Source: a virus. From it: a stretch of DNA of 51,778 nucleotides. The stretch covers positions 1 to 51,778 of IMG/VR virus record IMGVR_UViG_3300023184_000172. One strand, given 5' to 3'. A program made the translations under genes and the position numbers. This document shows, piece by piece, positions 2,387 through 33,611 of the stretch. The notes beneath the pieces are model-generated. The model was not told the origin of the DNA. It searched no databases and worked only from the letters and a program-made list of their open reading frames with translations. The stretch's first letter is position 1, and every line of letters begins with the position of its first letter.

Positions 2387-3583
2387 TTAAAATTTTAAGT
2401 GTTCTCGTAAGTGTGTATCGAATATAATACCATTACAATACTCTCTATTCTTATTAGCAATACCCATAGCAACCTCAATTCTAATATTCCACTCACTATC
2501 CTCTATATCCCTTAGCCACTCTATATTACGGATTAAAGCGGGAATCCAACTACTATTTTTATAATCAATTGGTTTTAAAATATCCCAATTAGTGTATATA
2601 TCCCATAACTCATCCGTATAAAGAGAACGATAGGGAGTAAGAGAATTCTTTTCCATCAAACTATGTGCAAGGGGGTCTGTATGTATAAATGGTTTTCCTA
2701 AGTATAATAACTTAATAGTTTTCTCATTGAACTTAATAAGATGTAAGTGTGGGGATGTGATAGGAAATGTTTCATATACTACTTCCATTTGTGAGTGTAT
2801 AGTATGTTCTACAAACTGATGTATATAAGTGTTTCCATTAACTCCGTTATTTTGATGTTGAGAGAATAGATGTGAATTAAAGAATGGGGATGTGTAGTTT
2901 AATAACGGCAATGCGTGCTTATTCCATTTAGGAGATGTATTTGTCGTAAACTTTAATTCTACCTTATCATTTGTAAGGAAGTGTTTAGCCAACGCCATCC
3001 GTACCCTATCCGTCAACTTATTAATATGTAATCCTATCCTATGTTTTTTAGGTTGGTTGGTAAATACATCCCCCCCACAAAAAAATATCTCACCTGGAAA
3101 TTCTCCATTGTTATAATACGTTTGTAACCCTACCTTATTAGAAAATTTAAAATTCGTATAATTTACAAAAGGTATATCCCAAATTATCTTTACTCCTTTC
3201 ATATTACTAATACGTTCTAATAAAGTAGTTGATGTTCTTACCTCATTCAACATAAAGTAATCTTCGGTATGTTTCGTTATAACAATTACTACCTTTGTAC
3301 TCTCATCTAATCTTTCTAACCTATCTAATAGAGAAAGGTAATCCGATTCCATAACACCCGGTATAGATAGAACTAATACATTAACACATCCTTTTTTAAA
3401 TTCCATTGTAGAAATCTGAGATGCGTGTCCATACTCCCATACAAAATTATACCCATCTATTTCAAAATAACGAGTATCGGTTTTGTTTGACCAGTCTTTT
3501 GATACCTTACTAATTTCATCCTTTGTCCAAAAGTAAGGTTCTATTGACATCCAATCACCAATATAATTTACGTTTACACTCAT
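2387..3583 (-). CDS. Glycosyltransferase-like protein (GKPF family), 398 aa
   Basis: One of five paralogues in the window (others at 3580-4836, 27306-28463, 42015-43103, 43096-44352). Shared order: an N-terminal alpha/beta region with a VVIVITKHTED-like strand, a middle RIGLHINKLTDRVRMALAKH segment, and a C-terminal signature EKTIKLLYLGKPFIHTDP followed by a conserved aromatic region. The signature resembles the nucleotide-sugar side of GT-B enzymes such as fucosyltransferases, but no catalytic residues can be assigned by eye. The ATG at 3583 overlaps the upstream stop as ATGA, which supports this start over a GTG six bases upstream. Confidence 0.7.
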   Translation of the reverse strand: MSVNVNYIGDWMSIEPYFWTKDEISKVSKDWSNKTDTRYFEIDGYNFVWEYGHASQISTMEFKKGCVNVLVLSIPGVMESDYLSLLDRLERLDESTKVVIVITKHTEDYFMLNEVRTSTTLLERISNMKGVKIIWDIPFVNYTNFKFSNKVGLQTYYNNGEFPGEIFFCGGDVFTNQPKKHRIGLHINKLTDRVRMALAKHFLTNDKVELKFTTNTSPKWNKHALPLLNYTSPFFNSHLFSQHQNNGVNGNTYIHQFVEHTIHSQMEVVYETFPITSPHLHLIKFNEKTIKLLYLGKPFIHTDPLAHSLMEKNSLTPYRSLYTDELWDIYTNWDILKPIDYKNSSWIPALIRNIEWLRDIEDSEWNIRIEVAMGIANKNREYCNGIIFDTHLREHLKF

Positions 3584-4836
3584 ATCCACCCTAATTCTTT
3601 TATCCTATCAAAGATTGAAGTATTGTAATATACATCTTCGAAGTGTTTAATATTTTCTTGTGCTATCTTATTTGCTCTCTCTATTAAATCACCATATTCC
3701 ATTTCACTCATATCTAACAATTGTTGGATTCTCTCAAACAATAAATCTAGCCACATTGTGTTACCTACCTCTATGTAAGTATCTTTATTAAAATAACTGG
3801 CATTATACATTTGTAACAACTCCGGTCCTAGTAAGCAATCATATTGTTGAAACCCATACTCTTTTACTAAATGATACATAACAGGATCAGTATTAATAAA
3901 CGGTTTGCCTAATAAAATATTCTTTAATATTTTTTCAGTAGGTTTTCTATGTGCCTTTGATGGTTCTTTGGTATTAGTTTCATACACTATATCGATATCT
4001 GAATTGATAAATAGTTTAGCTAACCCTAAGAAATAATTTGGTGGGTGATAGCCATGCTCTGCGTTTTTGTTTGGATTGTATCTTAATGTACTATTGCGTT
4101 CTATAAAGTATGAATCATGCTCCATATACTTTTCTAATGGATAATTAGTTTCACTCAATAATCTATTATGATGAACAAACTGATGTTTATAGTTAATAGT
4201 TAAAAACATTTTAGGATGTGATATATAATCCGTAGTTAAGAATCGTTTAACCAGTCTATACCTTTCACCGATACCATTACCGATTGTACCCATATGAAAC
4301 CCAATTCTTTTATCTTTCTTTAATCTACTGAATACATCTTTGTTATAATAGAAATTAGTAATACCATTCCCACTCATATCTTTTTGTAAATTAATATAAT
4401 CATAGAAATATATTTTAGGTTCAAACACTGCAGTCTCAGTATTAATCAATGGAGCATTATGTATAACCTTTATATTATTACATTTAGAAATTTTATCAAA
4501 CATTATATCTTCAATCTCACCTCTAATACTAAATATGTTTTGTTCTAAATTACCACCAATGATTATAATCGTTACATCCGTATTGATATATTTGTTTACT
4601 ATATTACATAATGGTTGGTAATCCTCAGCAAACATTCCTATCTTTATAATATGAATTGTGTCACTACATAAATCCGTATCAGGTATAGTTGTACCTACAA
4701 CATGCTCAATGGTATATCCATTCCAGTCACATTTTTGTTCCATAAAATTTTTGGTAAGGTCTTTGATTTCATCCAATTGATTATATGTGAATAGTAACCC
4801 ATCGTCTTGTCTTTGGTAGAAATTAATTTTCTTCAT
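3580..4836 (-). CDS. Glycosyltransferase-like protein (GKPF family), 418 aa
   Basis: Close relative of the next gene downstream. It has TVIIIIGG-like strands near residue 100, KDKRIGFHMGTIGNGIGERY in the middle and the C-terminal signature TEKILKNILLGKPFINTDP. The start MKKINFYQ is preferred to an upstream one because it aligns with the N-terminus of the paralogue. The two genes overlap by 4 bases and were probably duplicated in tandem. They may build or decorate a glycan; the substrate is unknown. Confidence 0.7.
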   Translation of the reverse strand: MKKINFYQRQDDGLLFTYNQLDEIKDLTKNFMEQKCDWNGYTIEHVVGTTIPDTDLCSDTIHIIKIGMFAEDYQPLCNIVNKYINTDVTIIIIGGNLEQNIFSIRGEIEDIMFDKISKCNNIKVIHNAPLINTETAVFEPKIYFYDYINLQKDMSGNGITNFYYNKDVFSRLKKDKRIGFHMGTIGNGIGERYRLVKRFLTTDYISHPKMFLTINYKHQFVHHNRLLSETNYPLEKYMEHDSYFIERNSTLRYNPNKNAEHGYHPPNYFLGLAKLFINSDIDIVYETNTKEPSKAHRKPTEKILKNILLGKPFINTDPVMYHLVKEYGFQQYDCLLGPELLQMYNASYFNKDTYIEVGNTMWLDLLFERIQQLLDMSEMEYGDLIERANKIAQENIKHFEDVYYNTSIFDRIKELGWI

Positions 4837-4908
4837 TGTAACATCTTTAGTTTGTGTAATACACATATAAGTATATAATAATCCTAAAGTTGAAAATTTT
4901 AACCTCAC

Positions 4909-8948: not shown

Positions 8949-9272
8949 TTAATTATTCATTTGTAGTATTGTTTCTATATTGTGTATAAACATTTCTTTC
9001 CAACGTATTTGTGGAAGGGTTAGATTTACTCTCCTTTGTGGCTCATTACTATTGTATAAGGTATAGTAGTTATGAGTGTCCATACCATATTCACCTTTTA
9101 CCTTATTCCTTTGTAGTATTAAGCATTCATCTATTATAGTTTTATGTTCGGACCTTATGTGTATTTGATAATGGTCTCCGTATTCATATACACCCTCTAT
9201 ACTATATCCATCAGTTGTATGCCTTAGTAGGGTTTCACTTATTAGTTTATGTCGATTTTCTATTGTTAGCAT
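8949..9272 (-). CDS. MLTI-family protein 1, 107 aa
   Basis: Member of a family that I do not recognise, with 17 copies in this window. The plan is MLTIENIxKI at the start; a strand with W/Y-x-V and E/D residues; an aromatic strand (here YQIHIRSEHK); an I-x-L-x-R strand; a G-x-Y strand pair; and a C-terminal helix of the form I-x-x-I-x-x-IL. It looks like one small beta-sheet-plus-helix domain. No signal peptide, membrane segment or catalytic motif is conserved. The start codon context ATGCTAACAATAGAAAA is kept at DNA level in many copies. Confidence 0.8.
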   Translation of the reverse strand: MLTIENRHKLISETLLRHTTDGYSIEGVYEYGDHYQIHIRSEHKTIIDECLILQRNKVKGEYGMDTHNYYTLYNSNEPQRRVNLTLPQIRWKEMFIHNIETILQMNN

Positions 9273-9273
9273 A

Positions 9274-9468
9274 TTATTTATTTTTATCTTTTAGTACTCC
9301 GATTAGGGATTGTTTTACGATTAAAAGTTCTATTAATTCATCCCAACTTTCTGCCCTATCCCCTATTATAGTATTGTATTCATTCAGTATCTTATCCCTT
9401 TGGGCATCCGTTAGTGTTATACTTAATTGATGTTCTATTTCCTTAATATCGTTTATACTTACATTCAT
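9274..9468 (-). CDS. Small helical protein, 64 aa
   Basis: Two or three helices (INDIKEIEHQLSITLTDAQR, WDELIELLIVKQSL). It sits between two MLTI-associated genes with a 1-base gap on one side. No family recognised. Confidence 0.7.
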   Translation of the reverse strand: MNVSINDIKEIEHQLSITLTDAQRDKILNEYNTIIGDRAESWDELIELLIVKQSLIGVLKDKNK

Positions 9469-9480
9469 AGCTTATCATTG

Positions 9481-9732
9481 TTATTTAGTTTTATACCGCT
9501 TATTTCTTTTTTGTTTCTTATAGGGTATTGTTAGTGCTATACTCATACCTGTCTCATACTCCCAATATAAATCATATGAACTCCATACATACACATTCCA
9601 TTTCTTTGTGTTTATAAGGTTGTGCTGATAGTATATTGATTGAGTGAGTGTATCTTCGTTTTGATTACTTAGTGTCTGTGTCCTTACTACTATACTCATT
9701 AGACTGAATAGTATTGTTATTATCCATTTCAT
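9481..9732 (-). CDS. Secreted protein with signal peptide, 83 aa
   Basis: The start MKWIITILFSLMSIVVRTQT gives a clean signal peptide; a longer reading frame upstream would bury it. The mature part is aromatic (WNVYVWSSYDLYWEYETGM) with a basic tail. It overlaps the upstream gene by 68 bases in another frame. Probably exported or held in the envelope; function unknown. Confidence 0.6.
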   Translation of the reverse strand: MKWIITILFSLMSIVVRTQTLSNQNEDTLTQSIYYQHNLINTKKWNVYVWSSYDLYWEYETGMSIALTIPYKKQKRNKRYKTK

Positions 9733-9847
9733 CTTTATTATTTTTATTACTACCGCTATTATGTGTTTCATCCGTAGTGACATCGGGCTTAACTCTACCG
9801 CTATGCTTCCTAATCCAATTATACATAAAATCATTTACATTACTCAT
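9665..9847 (-). CDS. Polar hypothetical protein, 60 aa
   Basis: Starts MSNVNDFMYNWIRKHSGRVK and ends in a low-complexity Asn/Ser/Asp/Lys tail. The tail shares its DNA with the signal peptide of the next gene in another frame. No family recognised. Confidence 0.55.
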   Translation of the reverse strand: MSNVNDFMYNWIRKHSGRVKPDVTTDETHNSGSNKNNKDEMDNNNTIQSNEYSSKDTDTK

Positions 9848-9878
9848 ATCAATTATTTTTATATCTTTTTGTGTGTAT

Positions 9879-10064
9879 CTATAATTCATCTTCACTTTCT
9901 ATTAAATTGTTTTTATACATCCACTTACTCATTTCTAAAATTAGTTTCACACTCTTATCGTCCAAGCGACGGCTTTGTTCGACTAACCTATCGATTGATT
10001 CTTTACTCAATAGGATGTACTCGTCTATTCCATCCATATTGCTAACTCTATTTACTATATTCAT
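9879..10064 (-). CDS. Small helical protein, 61 aa
   Basis: Acidic and helical (SKESIDRLVEQSRRLDDKSV). It ends IESEDEL and starts 1 base after the upstream gene's stop. No family recognised. Confidence 0.7.
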   Translation of the reverse strand: MNIVNRVSNMDGIDEYILLSKESIDRLVEQSRRLDDKSVKLILEMSKWMYKNNLIESEDEL

Positions 10065-10065
10065 A

Positions 10066-10338
10066 TTATATTCTTGTTGTTCTATTAGGATTACTTAACC
10101 AATCTTGGTATCCCTTTTTATTTTGTTTTCTTTGCTCTCTTATTTTTAACTCCTCTCTCATTGGTAAAGATAGTATAAACGCAACTCCGAAAAACAATAA
10201 GGCAATTAGAACATAAGGTAGGTAGTTGCCTAATTGTATTGCGAGTAATCCAATACCTAATATTCCTATCGTTACTACTATGATTAATGCCATTGAAAGT
10301 AAAAATGCGTTAATGTTTCTTTTTAAATTTGTATTCAT
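10066..10338 (-). CDS. Membrane protein with two helices, 90 aa
   Basis: Two closely spaced hydrophobic helices (residues 13-35, ALIIVVTIGILGIGLLAI, and 38-57, YVLIALLFFGVAFILSL), then a basic tail (REELKIREQRKQNKK). The hairpin topology leaves both ends in the cytoplasm by the positive-inside rule. A holin role is possible but unsupported. Confidence 0.7.
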   Translation of the reverse strand: MNTNLKRNINAFLLSMALIIVVTIGILGIGLLAIQLGNYLPYVLIALLFFGVAFILSLPMREELKIREQRKQNKKGYQDWLSNPNRTTRI

Positions 10339-10369
10339 ATTATTTTATATTACATTTCAATCATTGTTT

Positions 10370-10714
10370 TTATTTAAATAGATTTGTTATATGTTTGTCC
10401 AATTTGCCGGCGAATAGGTTTATGTTCTCTATATCCTTTGTATGCACTTCCGTCAACATTGTCAAAGGGTTTGTCACATATTGGGTAGTCAATTCATAAT
10501 AGTACCAAGGTTTATCACTCCTATCTTGCCTATTCCTATGTAGTATTACCGTAACCTCATTAACTATGTTATTGCCATTACCGTTTACAATCCATCCATA
10601 CATCGCATGCTTTATATGAAATGCGTATCTATCCGGGAAAATATACACATCCATAACATGCCATCCGTTTATACCCATACCTATAATATTATCAACATTC
10701 TCTATTGTTATCAT
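10370..10714 (-). CDS. MLTI-family protein 2, 114 aa
   Basis: The start MITIENVDNI was chosen over a longer frame because it matches the family and begins 6 bases after the upstream stop. It keeps WHVMDVYIF, YAFHIKHAM and the I-x-L-x-R strand as VILHRNRQ, then a YYYEL strand. Helix at the C-terminus: NLFAGKLDKHITNLF. Confidence 0.8.
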   Translation of the reverse strand: MITIENVDNIIGMGINGWHVMDVYIFPDRYAFHIKHAMYGWIVNGNGNNIVNEVTVILHRNRQDRSDKPWYYYELTTQYVTNPLTMLTEVHTKDIENINLFAGKLDKHITNLFK

Positions 10715-10719
10715 ACGGG

Positions 10720-11007
10720 TTATATTATATTTGCCATAAAATGTGTCATAGTGATTAGAAACTTTTGACAATCCAATAGGTCCTTTTTTTGTAACCACAT
10801 TTGTTGTCCCTCATACGTCATACAATACCAATCCCTATGTGGATGGTCCTTTTGTGGTGGGTGTATACGGCTTAGAGTGACCTTGTAAGGATTATTAGGT
10901 GCGAATTCCCTATCAATCCAAAATACATATGCCCAATCGATTTCTTGCACTTTCATATTTGCATTTGTATAATTTCTTATCCTATCTATGTTATGTATTG
11001 TTAGCAT
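10720..11007 (-). CDS. MLTI-family protein 3, 95 aa
   Basis: Shortest intact member. Starts MLTIHNIDRI, then VQEIDWAYVFWID and the family strand YKVTLSRIHPP. The C-terminal helix is QKFLITMTHFMANI. It overlaps copy 4 by 17 bases, so the array is tightly packed. Confidence 0.8.
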   Translation of the reverse strand: MLTIHNIDRIRNYTNANMKVQEIDWAYVFWIDREFAPNNPYKVTLSRIHPPQKDHPHRDWYCMTYEGQQMWLQKKDLLDCQKFLITMTHFMANII

Positions 11008-11305
11008 CGATTTCGGTTTTACCTATTATTGTATGTATGTATTGTAGTATGCCTACCGGCGTTATATCACTACCCTTTAACCAAAAATCATACTCCTTAC
11101 CATTGCTATTAGTTTTCAATTGGTATCGGTCTAATGCCTGGTCTTTGTTTCTATTCAATCCAAATGACCAATGATACATTTTGTATTGACCTACGTTAGT
11201 AAGGACAATTTGATATTGAGTAGGTGCTTCAATTACTTCGTACACTTCCCACTTCTCCGTTATTTGTTTGTCGTGTATTTTATCTATGTTTTTTATTTTT
11301 AACAT
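10991..11305 (-). CDS. MLTI-family protein 4, 104 aa
   Basis: Starts MLKIKNIDKI. Clear family strands WEVYEVIEAPTQYQIVL and FGLNRNKD, then YQLKTNSNGKEYDFWL. The final helix is GILQYIHTIIGKTEI. Separated by 1 base from copy 5. Confidence 0.8.
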   Translation of the reverse strand: MLKIKNIDKIHDKQITEKWEVYEVIEAPTQYQIVLTNVGQYKMYHWSFGLNRNKDQALDRYQLKTNSNGKEYDFWLKGSDITPVGILQYIHTIIGKTEIDANNT

Positions 11306-11306
11306 A

Positions 11307-11615
11307 TTATTCGTTTAACATTTTATCAATTAAGTTTCCTATAAAGTACGGAGATATTTGATGTAAACTTAACCATCTATTTATTTTAGTTTGGTCAAAA
11401 TCCTTATACAATCTATAAACAGGTTCTTTTCTGCCACTCATATATTGGCTCTCTCTATTCAAATAGAATATATTTTTTACATTGCCATTTATCGTAATAG
11501 CAAATCCATATACATTTTTGTAAACATCGATTGTTTCTTCTGCCTTACTTATATACCATTTATTAATAGATGAACCCACATTTATTATTTTATCTATGTT
11601 TTGTATCTTTAGCAT
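11307..11615 (-). CDS. MLTI-family protein 5, 102 aa
   Basis: Starts MLKIQNIDKI; strands WYISKAEETIDVY, YGFAITINGN and FYLNRESQYM. Ends FIGNLIDKMLNE. It overlaps copy 6 by 7 bases. Confidence 0.8.
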   Translation of the reverse strand: MLKIQNIDKIINVGSSINKWYISKAEETIDVYKNVYGFAITINGNVKNIFYLNRESQYMSGRKEPVYRLYKDFDQTKINRWLSLHQISPYFIGNLIDKMLNE

Positions 11616-11917
11616 ATCATTTTATTTTTAACAACCATTTCTACTAATTCGGTCCAATTTCGTATATCGTTTGTATTAACGTAAGTATGTGTACCAGCCG
11701 TTGTCCACAATCTATAACCCCTACGTTTATGTTTAGTCCTATTCAATAAAACTAATTGTGCTTTTGTTGTAATATATACACGTGCGATTGAATCTTTTGG
11801 CATAAAAATAAATCGGTATTCTATGTTTGATGCATCCACTCCGTACAATATCCAATGCTTACCTGCATAACTGAATTCTTTATTCTTTATATCCGCTATG
11901 TTTTTTATTACCAACAT
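11609..11917 (-). CDS. MLTI-family protein 6, 102 aa
   Basis: Starts MLVIKNIADI; strands HWILYGVDASNIEYRFIF and LVLLNRTKHKRRGYRLW keep the L-x-R and G-Y positions. The helix is WTELVEMVVKNKMI. It is the first gene after G-tract element 2, so a new transcript may start here. Confidence 0.8.
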   Translation of the reverse strand: MLVIKNIADIKNKEFSYAGKHWILYGVDASNIEYRFIFMPKDSIARVYITTKAQLVLLNRTKHKRRGYRLWTTAGTHTYVNTNDIRNWTELVEMVVKNKMIC

Positions 11918-11938
11918 TATATATACAATTTATACTAT

Positions 11939-11984
11939 CAAAAAAATTTAGGTAACGACACTTTTTCCCCCAACCCCCCCCGCG
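11939..11984 (-). repeat. G-tract/GTCGTT element, copy 2
   Basis: On the minus strand: G8-TT-G5, A run, GTGTCGTTACC, AAATTTTTTTGATAGT. It begins right after the stop codon of the upstream MLTI gene and ends just before the start of the next. TTTG is present, but no TAnnTTTG box lies 20 bases on, so promoter activity is uncertain. Confidence 0.6.
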
Positions 11985-12308
11985 TTATTTACTGAAATTA
12001 TGTAATTGACCACCTAATATACCAACGAACATTTTAAAATTTAATAATCCCTTTGTTAGTGTTGTATAACGATTATCTTGGTCATTATACATTTTCCACT
12101 CATTTAATGTACTACTAAATTCATTATATCTTAATAGTTTAAAGTTTACATACTTTGGATTCTTTACACCAAATGTAGTACCATAATCAAATCTTACTTT
12201 AATAATATAATCATGCTTTCGTTCCTCTATACTCATTACTACCCAATGTGCGTGTGGTGTATGTATTTTATTTCCTTCTATTTTTTGTATGTTTTCTATT
12301 GTTAGCAT
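11985..12308 (-). CDS. MLTI-family protein 7, 107 aa
   Basis: Starts MLTIENIQKI; strands HWVVMSIEERKHDYIIKV and VNFKLLRYNEF. The final helix is LNFKMFVGILGGQLHNF. Its stop codon abuts the G-tract element, so this gene may end a transcript. Confidence 0.8.
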   Translation of the reverse strand: MLTIENIQKIEGNKIHTPHAHWVVMSIEERKHDYIIKVRFDYGTTFGVKNPKYVNFKLLRYNEFSSTLNEWKMYNDQDNRYTTLTKGLLNFKMFVGILGGQLHNFSK

Positions 12309-12318
12309 ATCATTTGTT

Positions 12319-12633
12319 TTAACCTAAGCCTACTAATCTTAATTTGTCAATGAATATATCCATGTTACTAATTTCGTCTTTTGATATATACAATTTATGT
12401 CCCTTACTACTATGTAATGTAAAATATGTTCCCAATGTATTGTGTTGAGCCGGTTCTCTATCCAATGTAATTGTTATTGCATACTTTCTATTGGTTATTG
12501 TTATTTTATAACTACCTTCACGTTTTAATGTTATTGGGTCACTCACTAAACTTTCAATTATACTTTCGACATAAAAGTTTTTCTTACCTAATTGTCTAAA
12601 TGTTAGTTTTATATGGTTTTCTATTGTAAGCAT
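12319..12633 (-). CDS. MLTI-family protein 8, 104 aa
   Basis: Starts MLTIENHIKL; strands FYVESIIESL, YKITITNRK and ITITLDREPAQ, then LGTYFTLHSS. One of the best matches to the family pattern. The helix is ISNMDIFIDKLRLVG. Confidence 0.8.
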   Translation of the reverse strand: MLTIENHIKLTFRQLGKKNFYVESIIESLVSDPITLKREGSYKITITNRKYAITITLDREPAQHNTLGTYFTLHSSKGHKLYISKDEISNMDIFIDKLRLVGLG

Positions 12634-12634
12634 T

Positions 12635-12958
12635 CTATTTTATTTTTAATATGTTCTCAATAATTCCACTCATATCAGTTGCTACCCAATTCCAATTCTT
12701 TATTAGTTGCTTATCTATGTAACGAGTTGATGTTGTCCTATAAATAGAACTATTAATTATACCCCACATCCCATACTTACCATCAGGATTAGTTTCTCTT
12801 GCTAAATAGATAGAACACAATGGTTCATAATCCTTATCCCGTATTTTAAATTCATATACCAATTCCTTTTGCTCTACATCATATATTGTGCAACCTTCAA
12901 AAAAACAAAAATCACTTTCTGTCATTGGGTTACCTATATAATTCTTTATTGTTAGCAT
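12635..12958 (-). CDS. MLTI-family protein 9, 107 aa
   Basis: Starts MLTIKNYIGN; strands CTIYDVEQKELVYEFKI and CSIYLARETNPDGKYGMW. The final helix is WVATDMSGIIENIL. One-base gaps or near-gaps separate it from both neighbours. Confidence 0.8.
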   Translation of the reverse strand: MLTIKNYIGNPMTESDFCFFEGCTIYDVEQKELVYEFKIRDKDYEPLCSIYLARETNPDGKYGMWGIINSSIYRTTSTRYIDKQLIKNWNWVATDMSGIIENILKIK

Positions 12959-12959
12959 A

Positions 12960-13277
12960 TTAATCTATTTGCATTACTCTTTCAATACAATATATAAAAG
13001 TTTCTTTACTTTTTATTTGTTCATAACTTAATAACATACATTTTTTATCATCATCCTGGTCCCACAATATATAACCCTCCGCCGTTGGAAACCTACTAAC
13101 AAACCTATTCAATACCAATCGGATATCGCTATGTGTTTTATTTACATGTCTTATGTGTAAATGATATTGTTCGTTACCCTCTTGATTCCATTTCCATGTG
13201 TTAAATACATAATAGTTTCCTATTGGTATTGTTATTCTTTCATTGATTAACTTATGTGTGTTTTCTATTGTTAGCAT
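12960..13277 (-). CDS. MLTI-family protein 10, 105 aa
   Basis: Starts MLTIENTHKL, close to copy 1 (MLTIENRHKL). Strands YYVFNTWKWNQEG, YHLHIRHVNK and IRLVLNRFVS. Helix ETFIYCIERVMQ. Copies 1 and 10 may be the most recent duplicates. Confidence 0.8.
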   Translation of the reverse strand: MLTIENTHKLINERITIPIGNYYVFNTWKWNQEGNEQYHLHIRHVNKTHSDIRLVLNRFVSRFPTAEGYILWDQDDDKKCMLLSYEQIKSKETFIYCIERVMQID

Positions 13278-13278
13278 A

Positions 13279-13617
13279 TTATTTAGTTGCTTCGGTTTTC
13301 CACCAATGTTCTGCTTTAGCTAGGATTTTGCATATCTCCGATGCTAATCCATCTTTAGTTTTAACATCATCAATAGTAACGAAGCTTCTGGTTGCCAAAT
13401 GCAATCCCATTACAAATATTTGATACTCTCCTCTATTTACATCCCTACCCAATCGTACTTCAATTTCTTTATTATATCCCTTACCATCACTAATTGGACC
13501 GAAGTGGAAAGAATAAAATTGTTCACTTAACTTATTTTGTGTTTCGGTTATCTCTCTCAATCCTCTTTGGTGGCAGAAGTTTAACTCTAATTCCTTTATG
13601 TTCTTTATTGTTAGCAT
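13279..13617 (-). CDS. MLTI-family protein 11, 112 aa
   Basis: The start MLTIKNIKEL was chosen over an ATG 27 bases upstream because it matches the family. Strands FYSFHFGPISDG and IEVRLGRDVNRGEYQIFV keep the L-x-R and G-x-Y positions. The C-terminus is longer than usual (LAKAEHWWKTEATK). Confidence 0.8.
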   Translation of the reverse strand: MLTIKNIKELELNFCHQRGLREITETQNKLSEQFYSFHFGPISDGKGYNKEIEVRLGRDVNRGEYQIFVMGLHLATRSFVTIDDVKTKDGLASEICKILAKAEHWWKTEATK

Positions 13618-13633
13618 TGTTATTATTTTTGTT

Positions 13634-14026
13634 TTAATTTTCATCGTTGGTTTCCTTTTCGGGTATTGGTGTATCGTTTCCTTCTATATTGTAAACTATT
13701 ATTTTATTTTCAAATCTATTTAATGTATCATTCCATATATCACCGACAACATGTATTTGGTTTTTCATAATAGTCAAAGTATATTTATTATTCTTTTCGT
13801 CCACTCCACTTATTATTCCCTTAAACCCACCAAATAATCTTTTAGTGCTTTTGTTGGTTATATTAATTTTTATATCCTCATATTCGTTTTTTATTAGTAT
13901 CTCTTTACTTCCTATCTTAATACTGCCTTCGTTTAATAAAGCGCTTCTTTTTGTTATTGGATATGTTTGTGCATTAACACTTATCACACTTAATAAAATT
14001 ATTAGAATAGATATTATTTTTTTCAT
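13634..14026 (-). CDS. Secreted protein with signal peptide, 130 aa
   Basis: MKKIISILIILLSVISVNAQ is a textbook signal peptide with the VNAQ-T cleavage pattern common in Bacteroidota. The mature region is beta-rich (IKIGSKEILIKNEYEDIKIN, YTLTIMKNQIHVVGD) and ends in an acidic tail. It probably acts in the periplasm or at the surface of the infected cell. No family recognised. Confidence 0.7.
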   Translation of the reverse strand: MKKIISILIILLSVISVNAQTYPITKRSALLNEGSIKIGSKEILIKNEYEDIKINITNKSTKRLFGGFKGIISGVDEKNNKYTLTIMKNQIHVVGDIWNDTLNRFENKIIVYNIEGNDTPIPEKETNDEN

Positions 14027-14027
14027 A

Positions 14028-14597
14028 CTATTTCTTTAAATCTCTTTTAATATCCTCTTTAACTTTCTCTAAATATACTAACCTTTCATTTTGTGAAACA
14101 AACGGCACACTCCAAAATTGACGAGTCTTTGTTTTAAACCAACCGAATACAAATGAATATACCCCTAATGTTAATCTCAATTTTACTGAATTAAGATACA
14201 TTGTTAATACAGGTAATGCAGGTGCTCCATGTGTCAAATAAGTTCTAACTTTTTTATCACTTAACAAAGGTGTTGGATAACCATACAATTTTGTAATCGG
14301 TGTAAACTTATATGCAAACCCCGGCGTAAATATTTGGTCAAAGAATGCCTCCATTGCTGGCGTGCATCTAAACCACCATACGGGAGATATAATATAAATC
14401 CTATCTGCCCATGTTATTAAATGTTTATACTTTTCAATCTTATCTTTTGTAAATTGGAATGTTATATTTTCTTTGTATAAATCAATTACACACGTTTCCT
14501 CTTTATTTTGTTTTAAAAATCCTTCAATAGTTTTCATTATACCATTGTAGCAGAAACTCTTTTTATCAGGGTGTCCTATTATAATTAAGTTTTTCAT
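14028..14597 (-). CDS. NAD(P)H-quinone reductase-like flavoprotein, 189 aa
   Basis: Flavodoxin-like fold of the NQO1/YheR/KefF group (flavodoxin_2). The N-terminus LIIIGHPDKKSFCYNGIM is the FMN/FAD phosphate loop. WADRIYIISPVWWFRCTPAM matches the conserved isoalloxazine-contact motif (P-x-WW). FDQIFTPGFAYKF matches the D-x-x-F-x-x-GFA-Y motif. It probably reduces quinones or other acceptors with NAD(P)H. It lies 1 base from a secreted-protein gene. This is an unusual phage gene; a redox or stress role is an inference. Confidence 0.85.
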   Translation of the reverse strand: MKNLIIIGHPDKKSFCYNGIMKTIEGFLKQNKEETCVIDLYKENITFQFTKDKIEKYKHLITWADRIYIISPVWWFRCTPAMEAFFDQIFTPGFAYKFTPITKLYGYPTPLLSDKKVRTYLTHGAPALPVLTMYLNSVKLRLTLGVYSFVFGWFKTKTRQFWSVPFVSQNERLVYLEKVKEDIKRDLKK

Positions 14598-14598
14598 A

Positions 14599-14850
14599 TT
14601 ATAATTTTATATACCATTTACCAAATTTGAATATCATTTTGAAAATACCAATTATTAACATCATAGGTATTATCACCGGCCAAAATATAGAGAATGAAGT
14701 AAATGCTTGTTCATTACTTTCCCAATCATCATACCAACCACCCTCACTTGCCCATTTATCGTAATCAAATCCAATCTTCACTCCAAAGTATTTGAAAAAT
14801 GTTAGTGTCAATAAAAATCCTATTATGTATATTGTTATTATTGTTATCAT
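14599..14850 (-). CDS. Membrane protein with two helices, 83 aa
   Basis: An N-terminal helix (MITIITIYIIGFLLTLTFF) and a second near residues 53-72 (IFWPVIIPMMLIIGIF), with an acidic, Trp-rich loop between (WASEGGWYDDWESNEQ). No family recognised. Confidence 0.7.
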   Translation of the reverse strand: MITIITIYIIGFLLTLTFFKYFGVKIGFDYDKWASEGGWYDDWESNEQAFTSFSIFWPVIIPMMLIIGIFKMIFKFGKWYIKL

Positions 14851-14855
14851 ATATT

Positions 14856-15074
14856 TTAAAGTTTTTCTATTTCTTGTTTAACTTCTATCCAATATTTCAT
14901 TTGAGAATGATTTGCCCAATAACAAGTATCACTATCAAAATCATCAGCTTCCATAAATCCTATAACTTCATCTACTGCTATTAATGCACATTCGATTTTA
15001 TGTTCGTTGTAACCCGTTTCTGGACAGTTGAACATATCCTCTACTAAGTCTAATGCTTTTTCTTTTGGTGTCAT
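14856..15074 (-). CDS. Hypothetical protein, 72 aa
   Basis: Acidic helical protein. TPKEKALDLVEDMFNCPETG and KIECALIAVDEVIGFME resemble small phage proteins of the same length seen in many tailed phages. No catalytic residues are visible. Confidence 0.7.
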   Translation of the reverse strand: MTPKEKALDLVEDMFNCPETGYNEHKIECALIAVDEVIGFMEADDFDSDTCYWANHSQMKYWIEVKQEIEKL

Positions 15075-15090
15075 ATATTTTATAGTTTTT

Positions 15091-15465
15091 CTATTTATTG
15101 TTTAACTGCTTTTCAATACTGTCTTGTTGTTTAAGATACTCGGGGTCATATTCTCCTGTGGTGTGGTTCCATAGCACTTTAACCGGTCCATTGTAGGTAG
15201 CGTAGAAGATATCCGGCTTACATGGGTAGAATTCACCTTTTACTCCTTTGATTATAAAGTCTCCGTCTGATATCTTCATATCGCCTTCTAGTGTCTGGAT
15301 CGAATACTCATGAGTCCATTGGAGAGAATCATTACTATCCTCCATTCCTAATACTCTTATTACTAGTCTATTACTCGGCATCCAAGTCAACGCTTCATCC
15401 ATAGTTTCTGGTGTCCACTGGATTGCTTCTATCGTTACTGGCTTTTTTGTGTATTTTTGTATCAT
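15091..15465 (-). CDS. PGDYG-like phage protein, 124 aa
   Basis: The N-terminus (KYTKKPVTIEAIQWT) and the segment ISDGDFIIKGVKGEFYPCKP match the pattern K-KPV-x-IEA-x-QW ... GD-x-I-G-x-G-E-x-x-CKP-x-IF of a widespread small phage protein family (PGDYG-like). Its role is not established. It overlaps the next gene by 4 bases. Confidence 0.75.
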   Translation of the reverse strand: MIQKYTKKPVTIEAIQWTPETMDEALTWMPSNRLVIRVLGMEDSNDSLQWTHEYSIQTLEGDMKISDGDFIIKGVKGEFYPCKPDIFYATYNGPVKVLWNHTTGEYDPEYLKQQDSIEKQLNNK

Positions 15466-15674
15466 ATGTTATTCCATTTATTTGCGAAGTTATTATCATT
15501 TTTAAGTAAATAATCAAACTCTTCTATTTTTAATATTCTAAATTTTCCGGTAGAGTCTTCCACTAACCAATTATCATAAAGCCAATCATCTAAATCACCT
15601 ACATCTGATTTTCTCCATAGTTCGTCCATTCCGTTACCATAGTTATCATATAGTGTTTCTAATGCTGTTTTCAT
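15462..15674 (-). CDS. Hypothetical protein, 70 aa
   Basis: Acidic, with repeated short motifs (LDDWLYDNWLVED, IEEFDYLLKNDNNF). The start lies 2 bases before the upstream micropeptide's stop. No family recognised. Confidence 0.7.
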   Translation of the reverse strand: MKTALETLYDNYGNGMDELWRKSDVGDLDDWLYDNWLVEDSTGKFRILKIEEFDYLLKNDNNFANKWNNI

Positions 15675-15675
15675 T

Positions 15676-15801
15676 TTATTTCTTCGATTTTGATGCTTTA
15701 ATCAATTTTGATGCTTTAATCAATAGTATTGTTATCCACACTACTGCCGTCAATACACATGCTATTTCTACTATCAATGCTATTATTCCTAATGTTTTCA
15801 T
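15676..15801 (-). CDS. Single-pass membrane micropeptide, 41 aa
   Basis: One transmembrane helix (IALIVEIACVLTAVVWITIL) followed by LIKASKLIKASKSKK. The LIKASK part comes from an exact tandem duplication of the 18-mer TTGATTAAAGCATCAAAA, which suggests slippage during replication. Confidence 0.6.
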   Translation of the reverse strand: MKTLGIIALIVEIACVLTAVVWITILLIKASKLIKASKSKK

Positions 15802-15802
15802 A

Positions 15803-15979
15803 TTAATTGTCTATTTTGTAATCTATAAATGCTACTATTCCAATTAAGAAACAAACCATTGAAATTATTGCCCATTGCTTATCTAAATTGGACATTATTT
15901 GTATTAGTAAAACTCCAAATGTTAATCCACATAATATAACTAATGCTGCTCTTGCTATTGATTTTAATATTTTTATCAT
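15803..15979 (-). CDS. Membrane protein with two helices, 58 aa
   Basis: Two hydrophobic helices (AALVILCGLTFGVLLIQIM and WAIISMVCFLIGIVAFI) around a short charged turn (SNLDKQ). The stop is 1 base from the next start. No family recognised. Confidence 0.6.
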   Translation of the reverse strand: MIKILKSIARAALVILCGLTFGVLLIQIMSNLDKQWAIISMVCFLIGIVAFIDYKIDN

Positions 15980-15982
15980 TGT

Positions 15983-16138
15983 TTAGTGTTTATGTGATAC
16001 TCCTCGTTTCTTAAATAAATCTTCATAACTACCGCCACTCTTTGTTTGTTTTGGTTCTTTGTATGCTTCATATGCCATTAAGCCAATGAATACAACTACT
16101 GCTACAATTGTAACTATTAAAAATGCCATTGCTTCCAT
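15983..16138 (-). CDS. Mosaic single-pass membrane protein, 51 aa
   Basis: The N-terminus (MEAMAFLIVTIVAVVVFIGL) matches the N-terminus of the protein at 18619-18861. The C-terminus (SGGSYEDLFKKRGVSHKH) matches the C-terminus of the soluble protein at 18867-19187 (SGSYDDLFKKKGIAHKN). It looks like a fusion of parts of two neighbouring genes, or their common source. The shared DLFKK-x-G tail is probably a binding motif. Confidence 0.65.
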   Translation of the reverse strand: MEAMAFLIVTIVAVVVFIGLMAYEAYKEPKQTKSGGSYEDLFKKRGVSHKH

Positions 16139-16139
16139 C

Positions 16140-17009
16140 TTATATAAATTTTAATATTGATAAATCTTTTTGTTTTGCTTCTACCATTATATCCACTACA
16201 TTACCATACGTTTCAGGTAATCTCTTTATGTAATCACTATGTGCCTGTGGTTTACTACCCTCTTTACTTTCCGAATAGTGAACTGCCGGCGTTATATCTT
16301 TCGGCCATGTACTCATAGCTAACTCTAATGCATCTTGCTCACTTAAATTTCCGGTATTGAATGTGTGGTGATGATAATCAAATACAATAGGTATCTTTAT
16401 TGCATTATGAATATACATTAAGTCTTTAACTGAATACATACTCGCCTTATCGTCATTCTCAATTGTTAATCGGCTCTTTACTGAATCAGATAGTAGTTTA
16501 AAATTATCTATGAACCTATCCATTGCACTTTGCTTATCACCATACACTCCGTTACAATGTATATTAATTTTATTGTAAGGTGTTTTACTTAATCCTAATG
16601 CATCCATTAACCTACCATGCACTTCTAAATCATTTATTGTATTTTGTACTACCGCTTCTTTTGGTGAAACTAATACATTGAACGGACCTGGATGAAATGA
16701 TAATCTTTGTCCATACTTTGTTGCTTTCTCACCACATCTTTGTAGTATGATTGCGATTTCATTCCAATCTTTTAGTTGCTCAAATTGGTATTCGGTAGCC
16801 CACGGCATCATATCGGAACTCATACGATACATCTTAATACCATTCTGCTCATTCCAGTCTATAATCCGTTCTAAGTCCGCTACATTTTGTATAACACAAT
16901 CCGATACATAATCAAGTCCCTTTTCTAAGAAAGTTCTCTTAATCATTGTTCGGTTTGTAGTGACACTTTTACCTAAGCTCATATTAATACATGCGTAACC
17001 TAAATTCAT
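16140..17009 (-). CDS. uvsE: UV damage endonuclease UvsE/UvdE, 289 aa
   Basis: TIM-barrel endonuclease that nicks DNA 5' of UV photoproducts. Family landmarks: GYACIN at the N-terminus, YRMSSDMMPW (residues 62-71), RLSFHPGPFN (near 104), INIHCNGVYGDK, RLTIENDD (near 187) and FDYHHHTFN (near 217). The His, Glu and Asp residues in these motifs are the usual metal ligands. Length is typical. It starts from a strong promoter, separate from the MLTI genes upstream. Direct repair of phage DNA is the likely job. Confidence 0.92.
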   Translation of the reverse strand: MNLGYACINMSLGKSVTTNRTMIKRTFLEKGLDYVSDCVIQNVADLERIIDWNEQNGIKMYRMSSDMMPWATEYQFEQLKDWNEIAIILQRCGEKATKYGQRLSFHPGPFNVLVSPKEAVVQNTINDLEVHGRLMDALGLSKTPYNKINIHCNGVYGDKQSAMDRFIDNFKLLSDSVKSRLTIENDDKASMYSVKDLMYIHNAIKIPIVFDYHHHTFNTGNLSEQDALELAMSTWPKDITPAVHYSESKEGSKPQAHSDYIKRLPETYGNVVDIMVEAKQKDLSILKFI

Positions 17010-17040
17010 TTGTTTTTGTTTTATATGTCTTATACATACT

Positions 17041-17072
17041 CAAAGATACGAAATATATATGAAACTATCAAA
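17041..17072 (-). promoter_or_regulatory. Bacteroidota-type promoter (TTTG-N20-TATCTTTG)
   Basis: A perfect TTTG, 20 bases, TATCTTTG on the minus strand, 32 bases before the uvsE start. It is joined upstream to G-tract element 3. Confidence 0.85.
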
Positions 17073-17117
17073 AAAATTGGGGTAAACGACCTTCGCTCAA
17101 CCCCCGCCCCTTCCCCG
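17069..17117 (-). repeat. G-tract/GTCGTT element, copy 3
   Basis: On the minus strand: GCGGGGAAGGGGCGGGGG, TTGAGCGAAG, GTCGTTTACCCC, AATTTTTTTGATAGT. It begins right after the stop of the upstream MLTI gene and runs into the uvsE promoter. The TTGAGCGA part also appears in duplicated promoter element A. Confidence 0.65.
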
Positions 17118-17477
17118 CTACATTCTTTTTAGGTAATGGTTTGTATATAAATGCTGAAAATATGTTTCAATTGTATATATAAATGCATTTGCGTTACTCA
17201 TATCCTTTGGATGTATTGCGAATGTAGGCATTATGTTATTACTATTCAATTCTAAATATAATGCGTAAAATGGCTCATTCGTATCGGAATCAATCCATTT
17301 GTGTTTATCCAATATTAAATTACATTTATGATTATATTGATGTGAATATAACTGAATTTCATAATAGTTAGGTGTTGATTTACTTTTATCTAATACATCG
17401 GCTATATTCTTAATCATATAATCCGTGTCCTCTAAATGCACATCTAATAATTTTCTTATGTTTCTTATTTGTAACAT
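17118..17477 (-). CDS. MLTI-family protein 12, 119 aa
   Basis: Longest clear member. Starts MLQIRNIRKL; strands YMIKNIADVL, YYEIQLYSHQYNHKCNLIL and FYALYLELNS. The helix is ANAFIYTIETYFQHL. The I-x-L-x-R position is altered to LILDKH, so this copy has diverged. Confidence 0.75.
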   Translation of the reverse strand: MLQIRNIRKLLDVHLEDTDYMIKNIADVLDKSKSTPNYYEIQLYSHQYNHKCNLILDKHKWIDSDTNEPFYALYLELNSNNIMPTFAIHPKDMSNANAFIYTIETYFQHLYTNHYLKRM

Positions 17478-17478
17478 A

Positions 17479-17775
17479 CTATTTGATTATAAGTTCAGTA
17501 ATTCGTTTTACCATTTTCCGTTTTGTGTTTATTTTATCCTTTGTTAATAAACTTCGTTGAACATTACCCACACTATCCCAATACCATAATTCATATAATG
17601 CCGTGTCACCTCGTCCAATTGGTGTTCGTTCTAAACTCATTTCAAATCCAATGTTATGATTATTAGCTACCACTATTCTATATTGCGTTTCGGTTTCCTC
17701 AACACTATGAATAAACACAGTCGTGTCTCTAATCTTTGTATATACAATTTCAATATAGTTCTTAATTGTTAGCAT
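17479..17775 (-). CDS. MLTI-family protein 13, 98 aa
   Basis: The start MLTIKNYIEI was chosen over an upstream in-frame ATG by family alignment. Strands VFIHSVEETETQYRIVV and FEMSLERTPIGRGDTALYEL. Ends RKMVKRITELIIK. It overlaps copy 14 by 7 bases. Confidence 0.8.
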   Translation of the reverse strand: MLTIKNYIEIVYTKIRDTTVFIHSVEETETQYRIVVANNHNIGFEMSLERTPIGRGDTALYELWYWDSVGNVQRSLLTKDKINTKRKMVKRITELIIK

Positions 17776-18062
17776 ATCAAACCTTTTATACACCTAACTA
17801 CATATCGCATATTTTTTAGTTGGTCTTTTGTTATTGCCATATACTCCGTACCATGTTTTACTATGAATAATCCAATAGGTGTAGGTTTACGAGATATAGT
17901 ACAATGTATCATATGACCTTCATTTGGATTATCCACATGAATATGATAATGCATTAATGAACTTTTAATATTAGTTATCGTCCATCCATCACCTACATCT
18001 GATAATACAATGTTCTCACTATTTTTTATCGTTATCCGATTTTGTTTCAATGTTGGCTGCAT
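17769..18062 (-). CDS. MLTI-family protein 14, 97 aa
   Basis: An 8-residue extension (MQPTLKQN) precedes RITIKNSENI, which replaces MLTIENI. The rest is typical: GWTITNIKSSLMHYHIHV, then CTISRKPTPIGLFIV. It shares 44 bases with the membrane-protein gene upstream, which may explain the altered start. Confidence 0.75.
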   Translation of the reverse strand: MQPTLKQNRITIKNSENIVLSDVGDGWTITNIKSSLMHYHIHVDNPNEGHMIHCTISRKPTPIGLFIVKHGTEYMAITKDQLKNMRYVVRCIKGLIC

Positions 18063-20131: not shown

Positions 20132-20959
20132 TTATAAAATATCGTAATGTGTATTGATATATTCGTATAAAAACTCAGCAAACTTTATGTTGCCAAAATA
20201 ACCAGGATGTAAATCGTTTAATATATCAGCACCTAATTCATCTTTTATCGTATATCCTTTTTTCATTATCCAATGATGAAAATCAGTATGCCCTTCTATA
20301 TTTAATTCATTTGATAATAATGATTTATCTAAAACTCCTTTTAGTTTTTGGCCACCTTCAAAATATATAAATTTAATTTTATGGTATTTTAAAAATGTCA
20401 ATAACATCTCCGCCTCTCTATTCATTTTACTAACTTCAATATCATAATCTATAAAGTTATCTAAGTATTTTTCTAATGCACTATCTTTATTTGTATTTTC
20501 AAAATCGCCATGACATCCATCCATATAATACCCACGTGTTGCATTTACATAATCTCGCACACCATCCTCGTTAACTGAATGATTTACTACTACCCAACTA
20601 TTTAGATTTGTTGAATACATATCTAATCTATGAAAGTATGCTGGTAATTCTAATAACAACAGTAACTTATCTTTTTTATCCCAATTTCGTTTTACAAAAT
20701 CAAAAGCTTCTCTAACTGCTCTACCAGTTCCACCACCACTCGCTGCTTTGTTTTCTACTTTACATCCTAACATATCTGCTAACCTACTAGCATATGTAAC
20801 TTCTAATGTCTTATCCCACCATACATTATATTTTTCTTTGTAAACATCACGTACTAATGTTACCTTATCATCTGCATACTTAATGGTTTCTAATCCACCA
20901 CCTGCACTATGTGAACAGCCAGTTGCAAATACTATTTCTATATTATGTTTATTTGTCAT
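20132..20959 (-). CDS. SGNH-hydrolase-like protein, 275 aa
   Basis: One of four related proteins. Block I is FATGCSHSAGGG (nucleophile Ser in the GCSHS motif), the Gly/Asn region is ENKAASGGGTGRAV, and block V is DLHPGYFGNIKFAEF with the D-x-x-H pair. This is the GDSL/SGNH esterase layout, for example sugar O-acetyl or lipid ester hydrolysis. No signal peptide is visible, so it acts in the cytoplasm. It is last in its operon, followed by a terminator. Confidence 0.8.
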   Translation of the reverse strand: MTNKHNIEIVFATGCSHSAGGGLETIKYADDKVTLVRDVYKEKYNVWWDKTLEVTYASRLADMLGCKVENKAASGGGTGRAVREAFDFVKRNWDKKDKLLLLLELPAYFHRLDMYSTNLNSWVVVNHSVNEDGVRDYVNATRGYYMDGCHGDFENTNKDSALEKYLDNFIDYDIEVSKMNREAEMLLTFLKYHKIKFIYFEGGQKLKGVLDKSLLSNELNIEGHTDFHHWIMKKGYTIKDELGADILNDLHPGYFGNIKFAEFLYEYINTHYDIL

Positions 20960-23252: not shown

Positions 23253-24047
23253 TTAATCTCCTTTTTCTTTTATATAAGTATTATGTTTTATGTAATTAAG
23301 TATGTTTTTGGCTATAAATTTATGTCCAATTTCTCCAAAATGTGAATCTTTTACTATTTTATTAGTTTCAAATTCAATAATCAAATCAGTATTCCAATCT
23401 ATATGATTACTACATTCATATGCCGTTTCTACAATACCCCTATCACATTCAAATTTAATTAAATTAGAAAAATCTAATATAGATGTATTTTCTTTTATAC
23501 ATTGCTCTATATTTGGATAACTCCATAAAAATACATTCTTAGTTATATTACTTTTAATGTAACTTAATAGTGATAATATCATTACAACTGAATTTATTGA
23601 TAACCAATCTTCGAAATCTAAATGTGCCATATAAAACTGGCGATATTTATCATTATCATATTTTAAACCGCCACCCGCTTGAAATGCAGTAGTTTCCCAT
23701 TTTCCTTCATTATTTTTATATGGAACTTCAAATCTATGGTAATGTGTTAATTGAAATAATACAACATCATTCTCTTTTATATTTGGTAGGTCTTTTAATA
23801 GTTTTTTAAATTGTTGTGAATTACTATCCCCACCTTCTGCTCTCAGAATCCAATCTAACTTTAATTCATCTGCTATTATTTCAAAAAATGGAATTCCCTT
23901 TCTACCCAACCATTTGGTATATTCGGTTTCCATAAAATTAATATCACCTTTTATTCTCGGTAATCCTGGATCTTCAAAGTGTGAATATCCTAATAGATTG
24001 CCGGCACTATGTGAACATCCAAATATCCAAAGATTATTTTGTTCCAT
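23253..24047 (-). CDS. SGNH-hydrolase-like protein, 264 aa
   Basis: Block I is LWIFGCSHSAGN, the Gly/Asn block LRAEGGDSNSQQF, and block V DSHFGEIGHKFIAKNI with the D-x-x-x-x-x-x-GH pattern. NDVVLFQLTHYHRF matches the strand before block III. It overlaps its paralogue upstream by 14 bases, so the pair arose by tandem duplication. No signal peptide. The substrate is unknown. Confidence 0.8.
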   Translation of the reverse strand: MEQNNLWIFGCSHSAGNLLGYSHFEDPGLPRIKGDINFMETEYTKWLGRKGIPFFEIIADELKLDWILRAEGGDSNSQQFKKLLKDLPNIKENDVVLFQLTHYHRFEVPYKNNEGKWETTAFQAGGGLKYDNDKYRQFYMAHLDFEDWLSINSVVMILSLLSYIKSNITKNVFLWSYPNIEQCIKENTSILDFSNLIKFECDRGIVETAYECSNHIDWNTDLIIEFETNKIVKDSHFGEIGHKFIAKNILNYIKHNTYIKEKGD

Positions 24048-24765
24048 TTTTAAAATGTTTTATTATATAATCTGCCCAAAGTTTATGACCAGGCTCACCA
24101 AAATGCCCATCGGGAACCTCACCATTTGTTTCTTGTGCCAAAGCCATTTTATTATCAAACATAAAAGAACTAAATTTAGTATATTCTGCAGGCATTAAAA
24201 ATATATTTTCATTATCTATTTCTATTAAATCATTATCATGTGTCCATATACATACATTATCACATAATAAATTTAATAAATACTTTATTGCTTTAATTTG
24301 TCGGATTAATCTATCTTTGAATACTTTATTATTTCTATTTAGTATGACGCCCAACAATCCACTTTTATTTAAGCCATGTATTTCAAATATATCATCCGGT
24401 GTTGTTGATATACTACCTATATTAGTTGGTTGTAATATATCATTTATCAGTAAATCAAATCTTTCAAAGTAAGATATTCCAATTATAATATAATCATCCT
24501 TCTTTATGTTTTCTATATTTGTAAATATATTATCAAATATCATTTCATTTGATGCACCACCTTTAGCTGTATTCACTAGTTCTAAATTGAAATGGTTAGA
24601 CACATAATCAGGATAGATTAGAATTTCTTCTCCATCCTGTTTATTTAAATATTTTCTATAAGAAAGTGTAATTGGTGAATATGGATTTTGCTTTGGTGAA
24701 CGAATACAGCCATCACCTGCGGTAAAAGAATCACCGAAACACCATAATTTATTTTGTGTAACCAT
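24034..24765 (-). CDS. SGNH-hydrolase-like protein, 243 aa
   Basis: Block I is LWCFGDSFTAGDG, the most classical GDSF form of the four paralogues. NTAKGGASNEMIFDNIF supplies the Gly/Asn block, YIIIGISYFERFDL the next strand, and DGHFGEPGHKLWADYI block V. A cytoplasmic esterase or lipase-like role is likely; substrate unknown. Confidence 0.85.
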   Translation of the reverse strand: MVTQNKLWCFGDSFTAGDGCIRSPKQNPYSPITLSYRKYLNKQDGEEILIYPDYVSNHFNLELVNTAKGGASNEMIFDNIFTNIENIKKDDYIIIGISYFERFDLLINDILQPTNIGSISTTPDDIFEIHGLNKSGLLGVILNRNNKVFKDRLIRQIKAIKYLLNLLCDNVCIWTHDNDLIEIDNENIFLMPAEYTKFSSFMFDNKMALAQETNGEVPDGHFGEPGHKLWADYIIKHFKNGTK

Positions 24766-25816: not shown

Positions 25817-26478
25817 AATAACGATTTCCTATAAGTATTAATATGTTCAAAAAAATGATTAGCCATTCGTTGATGTCCTAACTCATTAAAATGCTTATCA
25901 GGATTACTATTCGGTTGTATAATATGTTGTTCCTCTAATTGGTCTTGCCACTTTGTATAAAACGAATAGTTTGTAAATTCTTTTGTTGAATTGGGGGCGG
26001 GAATAAAATCTATAATTTCTTTGTACCTATTAAAATCTGAATGTATTTGTCCCTCTGCACTCCAATAATAAATTGGTATTTTCTTTTTACTACACCAATT
26101 GTTTACTTGCTTATTGAACCATTTGTAATTAACATTTCGCATTTCTATTAGATTATCTATAAATGTACCTTGATTTCGTATAAAGTAATTTTCTAATTCT
26201 ATTAGTTGTGCTTTTGTTGGATAAATATTATACCTATCAAAAAATGTAAATTCAAATATTACCTTATCACCCGGCTGAATTTCATCTCTCCTATCTATAA
26301 ATTGTAATATAGATACCCAATTACATTGTCCGGGACGTGCACTATTTACTAATTCTAAATCTAATTTATCTGCTAATACATAAGGCCAGCTAATTCTTAA
26401 TGTATCTTCATCTCGTGGGTTAATTAAATTCATTCCGGTTGAAAATGAACACCCAAATACCCAAAGTTTATTTTTCAT
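25813..26478 (-). CDS. SGNH-hydrolase-like protein, 221 aa
   Basis: Block I is LWVFGCSFSTGMN, the Gly/Asn block is NSARPGQCNW, and DKVIFEFTFFDRYN is the following strand. DKHFNELGHQRMANHF is block V. It shares these blocks with the SGNH proteins at 20132, 23253 and 24034, and is coupled to the PfkB gene. Confidence 0.8.
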   Translation of the reverse strand: MKNKLWVFGCSFSTGMNLINPRDEDTLRISWPYVLADKLDLELVNSARPGQCNWVSILQFIDRRDEIQPGDKVIFEFTFFDRYNIYPTKAQLIELENYFIRNQGTFIDNLIEMRNVNYKWFNKQVNNWCSKKKIPIYYWSAEGQIHSDFNRYKEIIDFIPAPNSTKEFTNYSFYTKWQDQLEEQHIIQPNSNPDKHFNELGHQRMANHFFEHINTYRKSLL

Positions 26479-33532: not shown

Positions 33533-33611
33533 ATAATTCAGTTCATCCTATATCAACCACTCACCATCGGGTCGAATTTAAGATTTTTTTAGGTTTTGTT
33601 TTGATTGATAG

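Follow-up and report, generated by a model that had tools for sequence, protein, structure and literature searches.

A phage family of small paralogous genes in packed cassettes with a shared start-codon element, a candidate repertoire of host-facing binders

We analyzed a 51,778-nucleotide (nt) stretch of viral DNA (IMG/VR virus record IMGVR_UViG_3300023184_000172, positions 1 to 51,778; here called the window) in which 17 small paralogous genes form two clusters of close-set cassettes that all run in one direction. These genes form a phage-specific family, and most copies begin with a shared DNA element at the start codon. The array evolves by duplication, loss, reordering, and single-gene exchange between phage lineages. 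We suggest that the products are putative host-facing binders, kept as an exchangeable repertoire, a reading in which we place about half of our belief.

Translation and profile searches identified the 17 homologous genes, all on the minus strand, 14 of them within 8949-18062 and 3 at 33200-35517, the same number and places that had been proposed in a sequence-only reading of this DNA. Each gene was recovered by a profile built from the other 16 (leave-one-out expectation [E] values of 4.2e-14 to 6.5e-7). When a profile was built from other records only, exactly these 17 genes scored E <= 2.1e-13 in the window, and the next-ranked open reading frame there was at E 0.0077. We conclude from these two recoveries that the genes are true homologs and not chance similarities. 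Each copy encodes a domain of ~105 residues. Start codons were corrected for two members, at 10714 and 17775, and the start at 18062 is atypical (MQPTLKQNRITIKNSENI). Unrelated genes at 9274-10338 and at 13634-17009 break the 14-gene block; among them are those for UvdE (16140-17009) and for a flavodoxin-like protein (14028-14597). The members are given below with their leave-one-out E values; G and L numbers, here and later, are our handles for related viral sequences.

8949-9272, minus strand: member 1, E 4.2e-14.
10370-10714, minus strand: member 2, start corrected to MITIEN, E 5.3e-12; without a close ortholog in other records.
10720-11007, minus strand: member 3, E 2.7e-7; its homology block to G004 starts at -13.
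10991-11305, minus strand: member 4, E 5.1e-11.
11307-11615, minus strand: member 5, E 4.9e-8; second AlphaFold model.
11609-11917, minus strand: member 6, E 6.5e-7.
11985-12308, minus strand: member 7, E 4.7e-9; homology block to the distant phage G003 from -12 to +324.
12319-12633, minus strand: member 8, E 1.9e-12.
12635-12958, minus strand: member 9, E 6.1e-11; at a different array position in G004.
12960-13277, minus strand: member 10, E 1.2e-12; basis of the first AlphaFold model; its position differs in G004, and its nearest relative is in the distant G005.
13279-13617, minus strand: member 11, E 1.7e-7; ortholog in distant lineages only.
17118-17477, minus strand: member 12, E 1.6e-8.
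17479-17775, minus strand: member 13, E 1.3e-13; widely shared orthogroup of 9 members.
17769-18062, minus strand: member 14, E 1.7e-10; atypical N terminus.
33200-33532, minus strand: member 15, E 7.3e-12.
33612-33956, minus strand: member 16, E 3.4e-10; orthologs in other lineages only, with 84% protein identity to G001.
35209-35517, minus strand: member 17, E 1.3e-10; most conserved and most syntenic orthogroup, with invariant stretches in its alignment.

Inside the array, the gene at 13634-14026 encodes a small protein with a Bacteroidota-like signal peptide; it scores weakly against the family profile (about E 0.008) and has an ortholog in one distant relative only.

The family appears to be undescribed in the libraries searched, consistent with the failure of the sequence-only reading to recognize a known family. 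When 140 members were scanned against Pfam and PHROGs, no family was matched by two or more of them (best E 0.00097), and no Pfam immunity family was matched at all. The sole match of a profile of the 17 genes to PDB sequences was at E 0.85, and Rfam gave no match. We found no account of the family in the literature, of which our coverage was incomplete. A possible link to the adjacent NGYG-type protein, also raised from sequence alone, was rejected by profile comparison: this gene of similar size (33958-34218) matches phrog_4074 at 7.4e-17 but shows no profile similarity to the family (hhalign probability 0.1%, E 0.44).

To delimit the distribution of the family, we searched IMG/VR using three individual members, the alignment of an orthogroup, and a DNA pattern for the start motif. 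Besides the window, 26 viral contigs, the longest of 274 kb, carry the family; every one of them matches the family profile, and all belong to one uncultured T4-superfamily jumbo-phage lineage. An iterated profile collected 278 copies, corresponding to 244 distinct proteins, from 19 records including the window, with maxima of 33 copies in one 101-kb contig and 19 in the 274-kb contig; seven records beyond those 19 also carry the family. A single BLAST network (E < 1e-3) joins 231 of the 244 distinct members. The T4-superfamily terminase, portal, capsid, and sheath were read with PHROGs in the 274-kb relative G003, none having been identified within the window fragment. The nearest isolate is Flavobacterium phage immuto, which shares 57.5% identity with G003 in the terminase and 51.6% in the capsid, values that make a Bacteroidota bacterium the likely host. 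The family profile detects the family in every carrier relative on which it was run and had no match in the genomes of Flavobacterium phage immuto, Microcystis phage Mel-JY01, RM378, and the huge-phage genomes LR756508 and LR756511. Among isolated phages, tblastn of two members gave one 32-residue match at E 0.3 and otherwise nothing, and bacterial genomes gave no hit when scanned with a DNA motif and with an orthogroup, two scans that reach close relatives only. Two members, at 2723-3373 of L056 (52422-53072 of G002) and 1721-2323 of L069 (26720-27322 of G012), have a common C-terminal extension of ~100 residues (NTSSL.SNKFV...PPP...PDWY...RAKKAA) that is absent from other members.

Using 140 family rows, AlphaFold2 modeled the protein encoded at 12960-13277 with a predicted local distance difference test score (pLDDT) of 90.9 and a predicted template modeling score (pTM) of 0.82, and its 28% identical paralog at 11307-11615 with a pLDDT of 90.9 and a pTM of 0.83; the two alignments share rows, and the predictions are therefore not fully independent. 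Both models contain a short N-terminal helix (residues 4 to 10 or 7 to 10), an antiparallel sheet of five to six strands, and a C-terminal helix. In these confident models the two divergent paralogs share one predicted arrangement, which bears out the shared fold looked for in the sequence-only reading. Along the strands, positions alternate between a set that is hydrophobic in 90 to 100% of members and a neighboring set that is variable. I4, N6, Y38, and Y69 are near invariant and R58 is present in 203/243, so that the start and strand motifs picked out in the sequence-only reading are real; N6, Y38, R58, and Y69 are the most constant nonaliphatic residues, and no catalytic constellation is evident. 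For both models, the best solved-structure match is the actin capping protein CapZ, which is similar in the arrangement of its sheet and C-terminal helix; the match is weak (VIA Z 7.0 and 7.2), however, and with Z below 8 and 7 to 8% identity we take it as a common arrangement only and claim no homology. No Foldseek match reached E <= 1e-3 in PDB or among viral models; the closest viral entry, the unnamed protein A0A7U0G8J9, had E 0.017 and TM 0.54.

The start of the genes is conserved beyond what is seen in the protein. Among the loci examined, 84/84 exact copies of ATGCTAACAATA sit at family starts, and ATGCTAACA opens none of 699 other genes. The Leu2 codon is CTA in 122/168 cases, compared with 13% at other positions of family genes and 11% in the early codons of the 699 other genes; Thr3 is encoded by ACA in 127/133 and Ile7 by ATA in 107/110, and within orthologs the codons for Thr3, Ile4, and Ile7 are conserved above those elsewhere. 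The conserved start-codon context noted from the sequence alone is thus real, but it is partly a nucleotide feature, which had not been separated from the protein motif. Spacing within arrays peaks at +1 nt (57/180) and at -7 nt (26/180), the latter placing the upstream stop inside ATGCTAA, and the start region is weakly structured, with a mean minimum free energy (MFE) of -2.1 versus -6.3 kcal/mol inside genes. In our view, the element is a preference at the nucleotide level that cassette joints have in common, and shared ancestry, the supply of stop codons, and translational control can all contribute to it. A search for a RegA-like repressor gave no PF01818 match above the cutoff in nine relatives, a weak negative made without the T4 genome as a positive control.

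Comparison with three close relatives revealed how the array changes. Five of 31 family matches were displaced in gene order, compared to 0 of 170 for the other window genes; family genes were missing from the close relatives more often than other genes, and their median identity was 73 to 77%, against 88 to 90%. Lineage discordance was detected for 4/15 family genes and 5/70 others (Fisher p = 0.048). The gene at 12960-13277 is 78% identical to that of the distant G005 but only 58% to the close group, while those at 13279-13617 and 33612-33956 have orthologs in distant records only. Homology can be confined to one gene, as at 11985-12308, where DNA identity to G003 is 90.8% between -12 and the stop codon; at the protein level, UvdE of the same pair is only 64% identical. 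Single-gene homology blocks made up 35% for the family and 21% for other small genes, and in truncated blocks the left edge fell at the gene start in 78% and 59%, respectively, the block pairs not being independent. Orthologs with 80 to 99% identity keep intact frames across records, and purifying selection acts on them; the median dN/dS (omega) of close orthologs is 0.30 for the family, above the 0.18 of other genes from the same genome pairs.

A repertoire of binders with different partners fits these data best: the copies number in the tens and share one fold whose core is conserved and whose face varies, genes turn over one at a time, and each ortholog is under purifying selection. In such a repertoire, the conserved core would serve as a scaffold, while the exposed sheet face and loops would vary so that every copy has its own partner, most probably a protein of the host or a defense component. 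The phage could then draw on replaceable inhibitors or takeover proteins that suit the hosts its lineage infects. With a common start element, cassettes could be placed side by side in any combination and still have a correct stop and start, and translational control might be shared as well. For small genes outside the structural region, host takeover or counter-defense would be the likeliest use. A more specific version, in which one-fold binder cassettes are joined at the start element, supplying the previous stop and the next start, and specificities are acquired or dropped singly against changing host defenses, is a possibility that we put forward only tentatively.

Several observations weigh against the binder repertoire. 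Omega for close orthologs gave no sign of gene-wide or pervasive positive selection, and the diversity therefore stems mainly from old divergence of paralogs together with gene gain, loss, and shuffling. The arms-race radiation proposed in the sequence-only reading fits the gene turnover and lateral exchange, but the dN/dS check suggested with it points to purifying selection, and a role in such a race is an inference. Omega was 0.45 at presumed exposed sites and 0.15 at presumed core sites, a contrast that is indicative only and partly circular, since the classes were drawn from hydrophobic conservation in the same alignment and not from solvent exposure. Breaks at gene boundaries are common in other small genes of these phages too, and for this reason recombination at the start element is put forward as a hypothesis; with a modest enrichment over other small genes we do not claim it as the exact site of exchange. 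Within orthologs, the codons for Leu2 (0.73 versus 0.73) and Asn6 (0.70 versus 0.82) are no more conserved than those elsewhere, which makes the DNA element a preference, not a rigidly fixed word. Lastly, the library searches yielded no recognized anti-defense relative of the family.

A narrower binder model would make the array a polyimmunity-like locus, in which each copy neutralizes a different toxin or nuclease from host defense or competing phages. The family has the same tandem array of single-fold paralogs, variable between close strains; yet the 140 members scanned lack any match to a Pfam immunity family, no toxin partner was seen, and the two limited scans of bacterial genomes were empty, which leaves this model unlikely. 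The proteins could also be packaged in the head and injected, like the T4 internal proteins, in which case a shared N-terminal signal would bring varied proteins into the capsid to act on the host at entry. That the carriers are T4-superfamily phages by terminase, capsid, portal, and sheath is in keeping with this idea, and a conserved MLTI(E/K)N N terminus over varied sequence does resemble shared-signal families. However, the N terminus belongs to the modeled domain and is not a separable leader, its conservation lies partly at the nucleotide level, for which a peptide signal has no need, and the array neighbors are not head genes; we regard internal proteins as quite improbable.

The same low standing is given to a near-neutral expansion of ORFans, in which tandem duplicates turn over with little benefit to the phage. 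Rapid turnover and loss would be expected of it, and in culture the loss of ORFan regions can raise the fitness of T4-like phages (PMC4503421); on the other hand, a median omega near 0.30 and intact, highly identical orthologs indicate selection on the protein. Finally, it is very unlikely that the proteins are RNA- or DNA-binding autoregulators that recognize the start element of their own genes through the sheet, since the family-specific element at many copies, its weakly structured surroundings, and a weak resemblance of one model to the single-stranded DNA-binding protein 4pso (Z 5.6, uninformative because it is below 8) are set against isoelectric points that range from 4.4 to 10.2 (median 7.8) and a sheet face that is not conserved across the family, unlike a common nucleic acid site.

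The family offers a ready library of candidate host- or defense-binding proteins and allows a direct test of whether phages keep exchangeable repertoires of specificities, and the shared start element provides a concrete hypothesis for how cassettes could be interchangeable.

Two spacers recur between genes of these phages, the first of which is as follows.

11918-11984, minus strand: G-rich/T-tract intergenic element in a PeSL-like (promoter/stem-loop) position, recurring in relatives upstream of different family members and of other genes.

This element (GGGGcGGGGGTTGGGGG...GTCGTT...AATTTTTTTGATAGT) is found at 11918-11984 and at about 17050-17115 on the minus strand, in L053, L065, L071, L073, L074, and L076, and in others, and it is very G rich for a genome of 30% GC. 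Near 17074, TTG is followed 20 nt on by TATCTTTG, a promoter-like pair of the kind found in Bacteroidota. A stem-loop in the G-rich element was not supported by folding (z-scores of 0.58, 0.83, -1.74, and 0.50). The second conserved spacer (CTATCAATCAAAACAAAACC...GATATAGATGAACTGAATTAT) lies at 33533-33611 on the minus strand and in L051, L056, and L057, and it separates family genes in several records. Elsewhere in the window, an apparent MoxR-type AAA ATPase (48309-49538) stands beside a large VWA-type protein (49569-51686), the best phage relatives of which are in a 484-kb uncultured phage and in Microcystis phage Mel-JY01. Four genes (20132-20959, 23253-24047, 24034-24765, and 25813-26478) appear by eye to encode SGNH-hydrolase-type paralogs with GCSHS, GDSFT, or GCSFS N termini, and pairs of large proteins at 2387-4908 and 42015-44352 appear by eye to be glycosyltransferase-type paralogs.

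The closest described logic is that of the polyimmunity locus, defined by homogeneous tandem arrays of distant single-fold paralogs that differ between close strains (PMC3482391). The family shares with these loci of tandem SUKH and other immunity proteins the array of one-fold paralogs, the strain-variable content, and the lack of a catalytic signature, but its array is phage borne and bears no detectable sequence relation to Pfam immunity families. The closest described setting is that of the hyperplastic regions of T4-type phages, which are reportedly studded with PeSL promoter/stem-loop cassettes (Arbiol 2010 and Comeau 2014, as cited in PMC4503421). Common to both are a T4-superfamily core, as read in G003, small noncore genes that are shuffled between lineages while the rest stays collinear, and a recurring composite intergenic element with a T tract (at 11918-11984 and near 17074). 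The two differ in that the stem-loop part of the element is unsupported by folding here and that one gene family dominates, starting with a DNA word of its own; to our knowledge, phages rarely keep tens of shuffled variants of one small fold.

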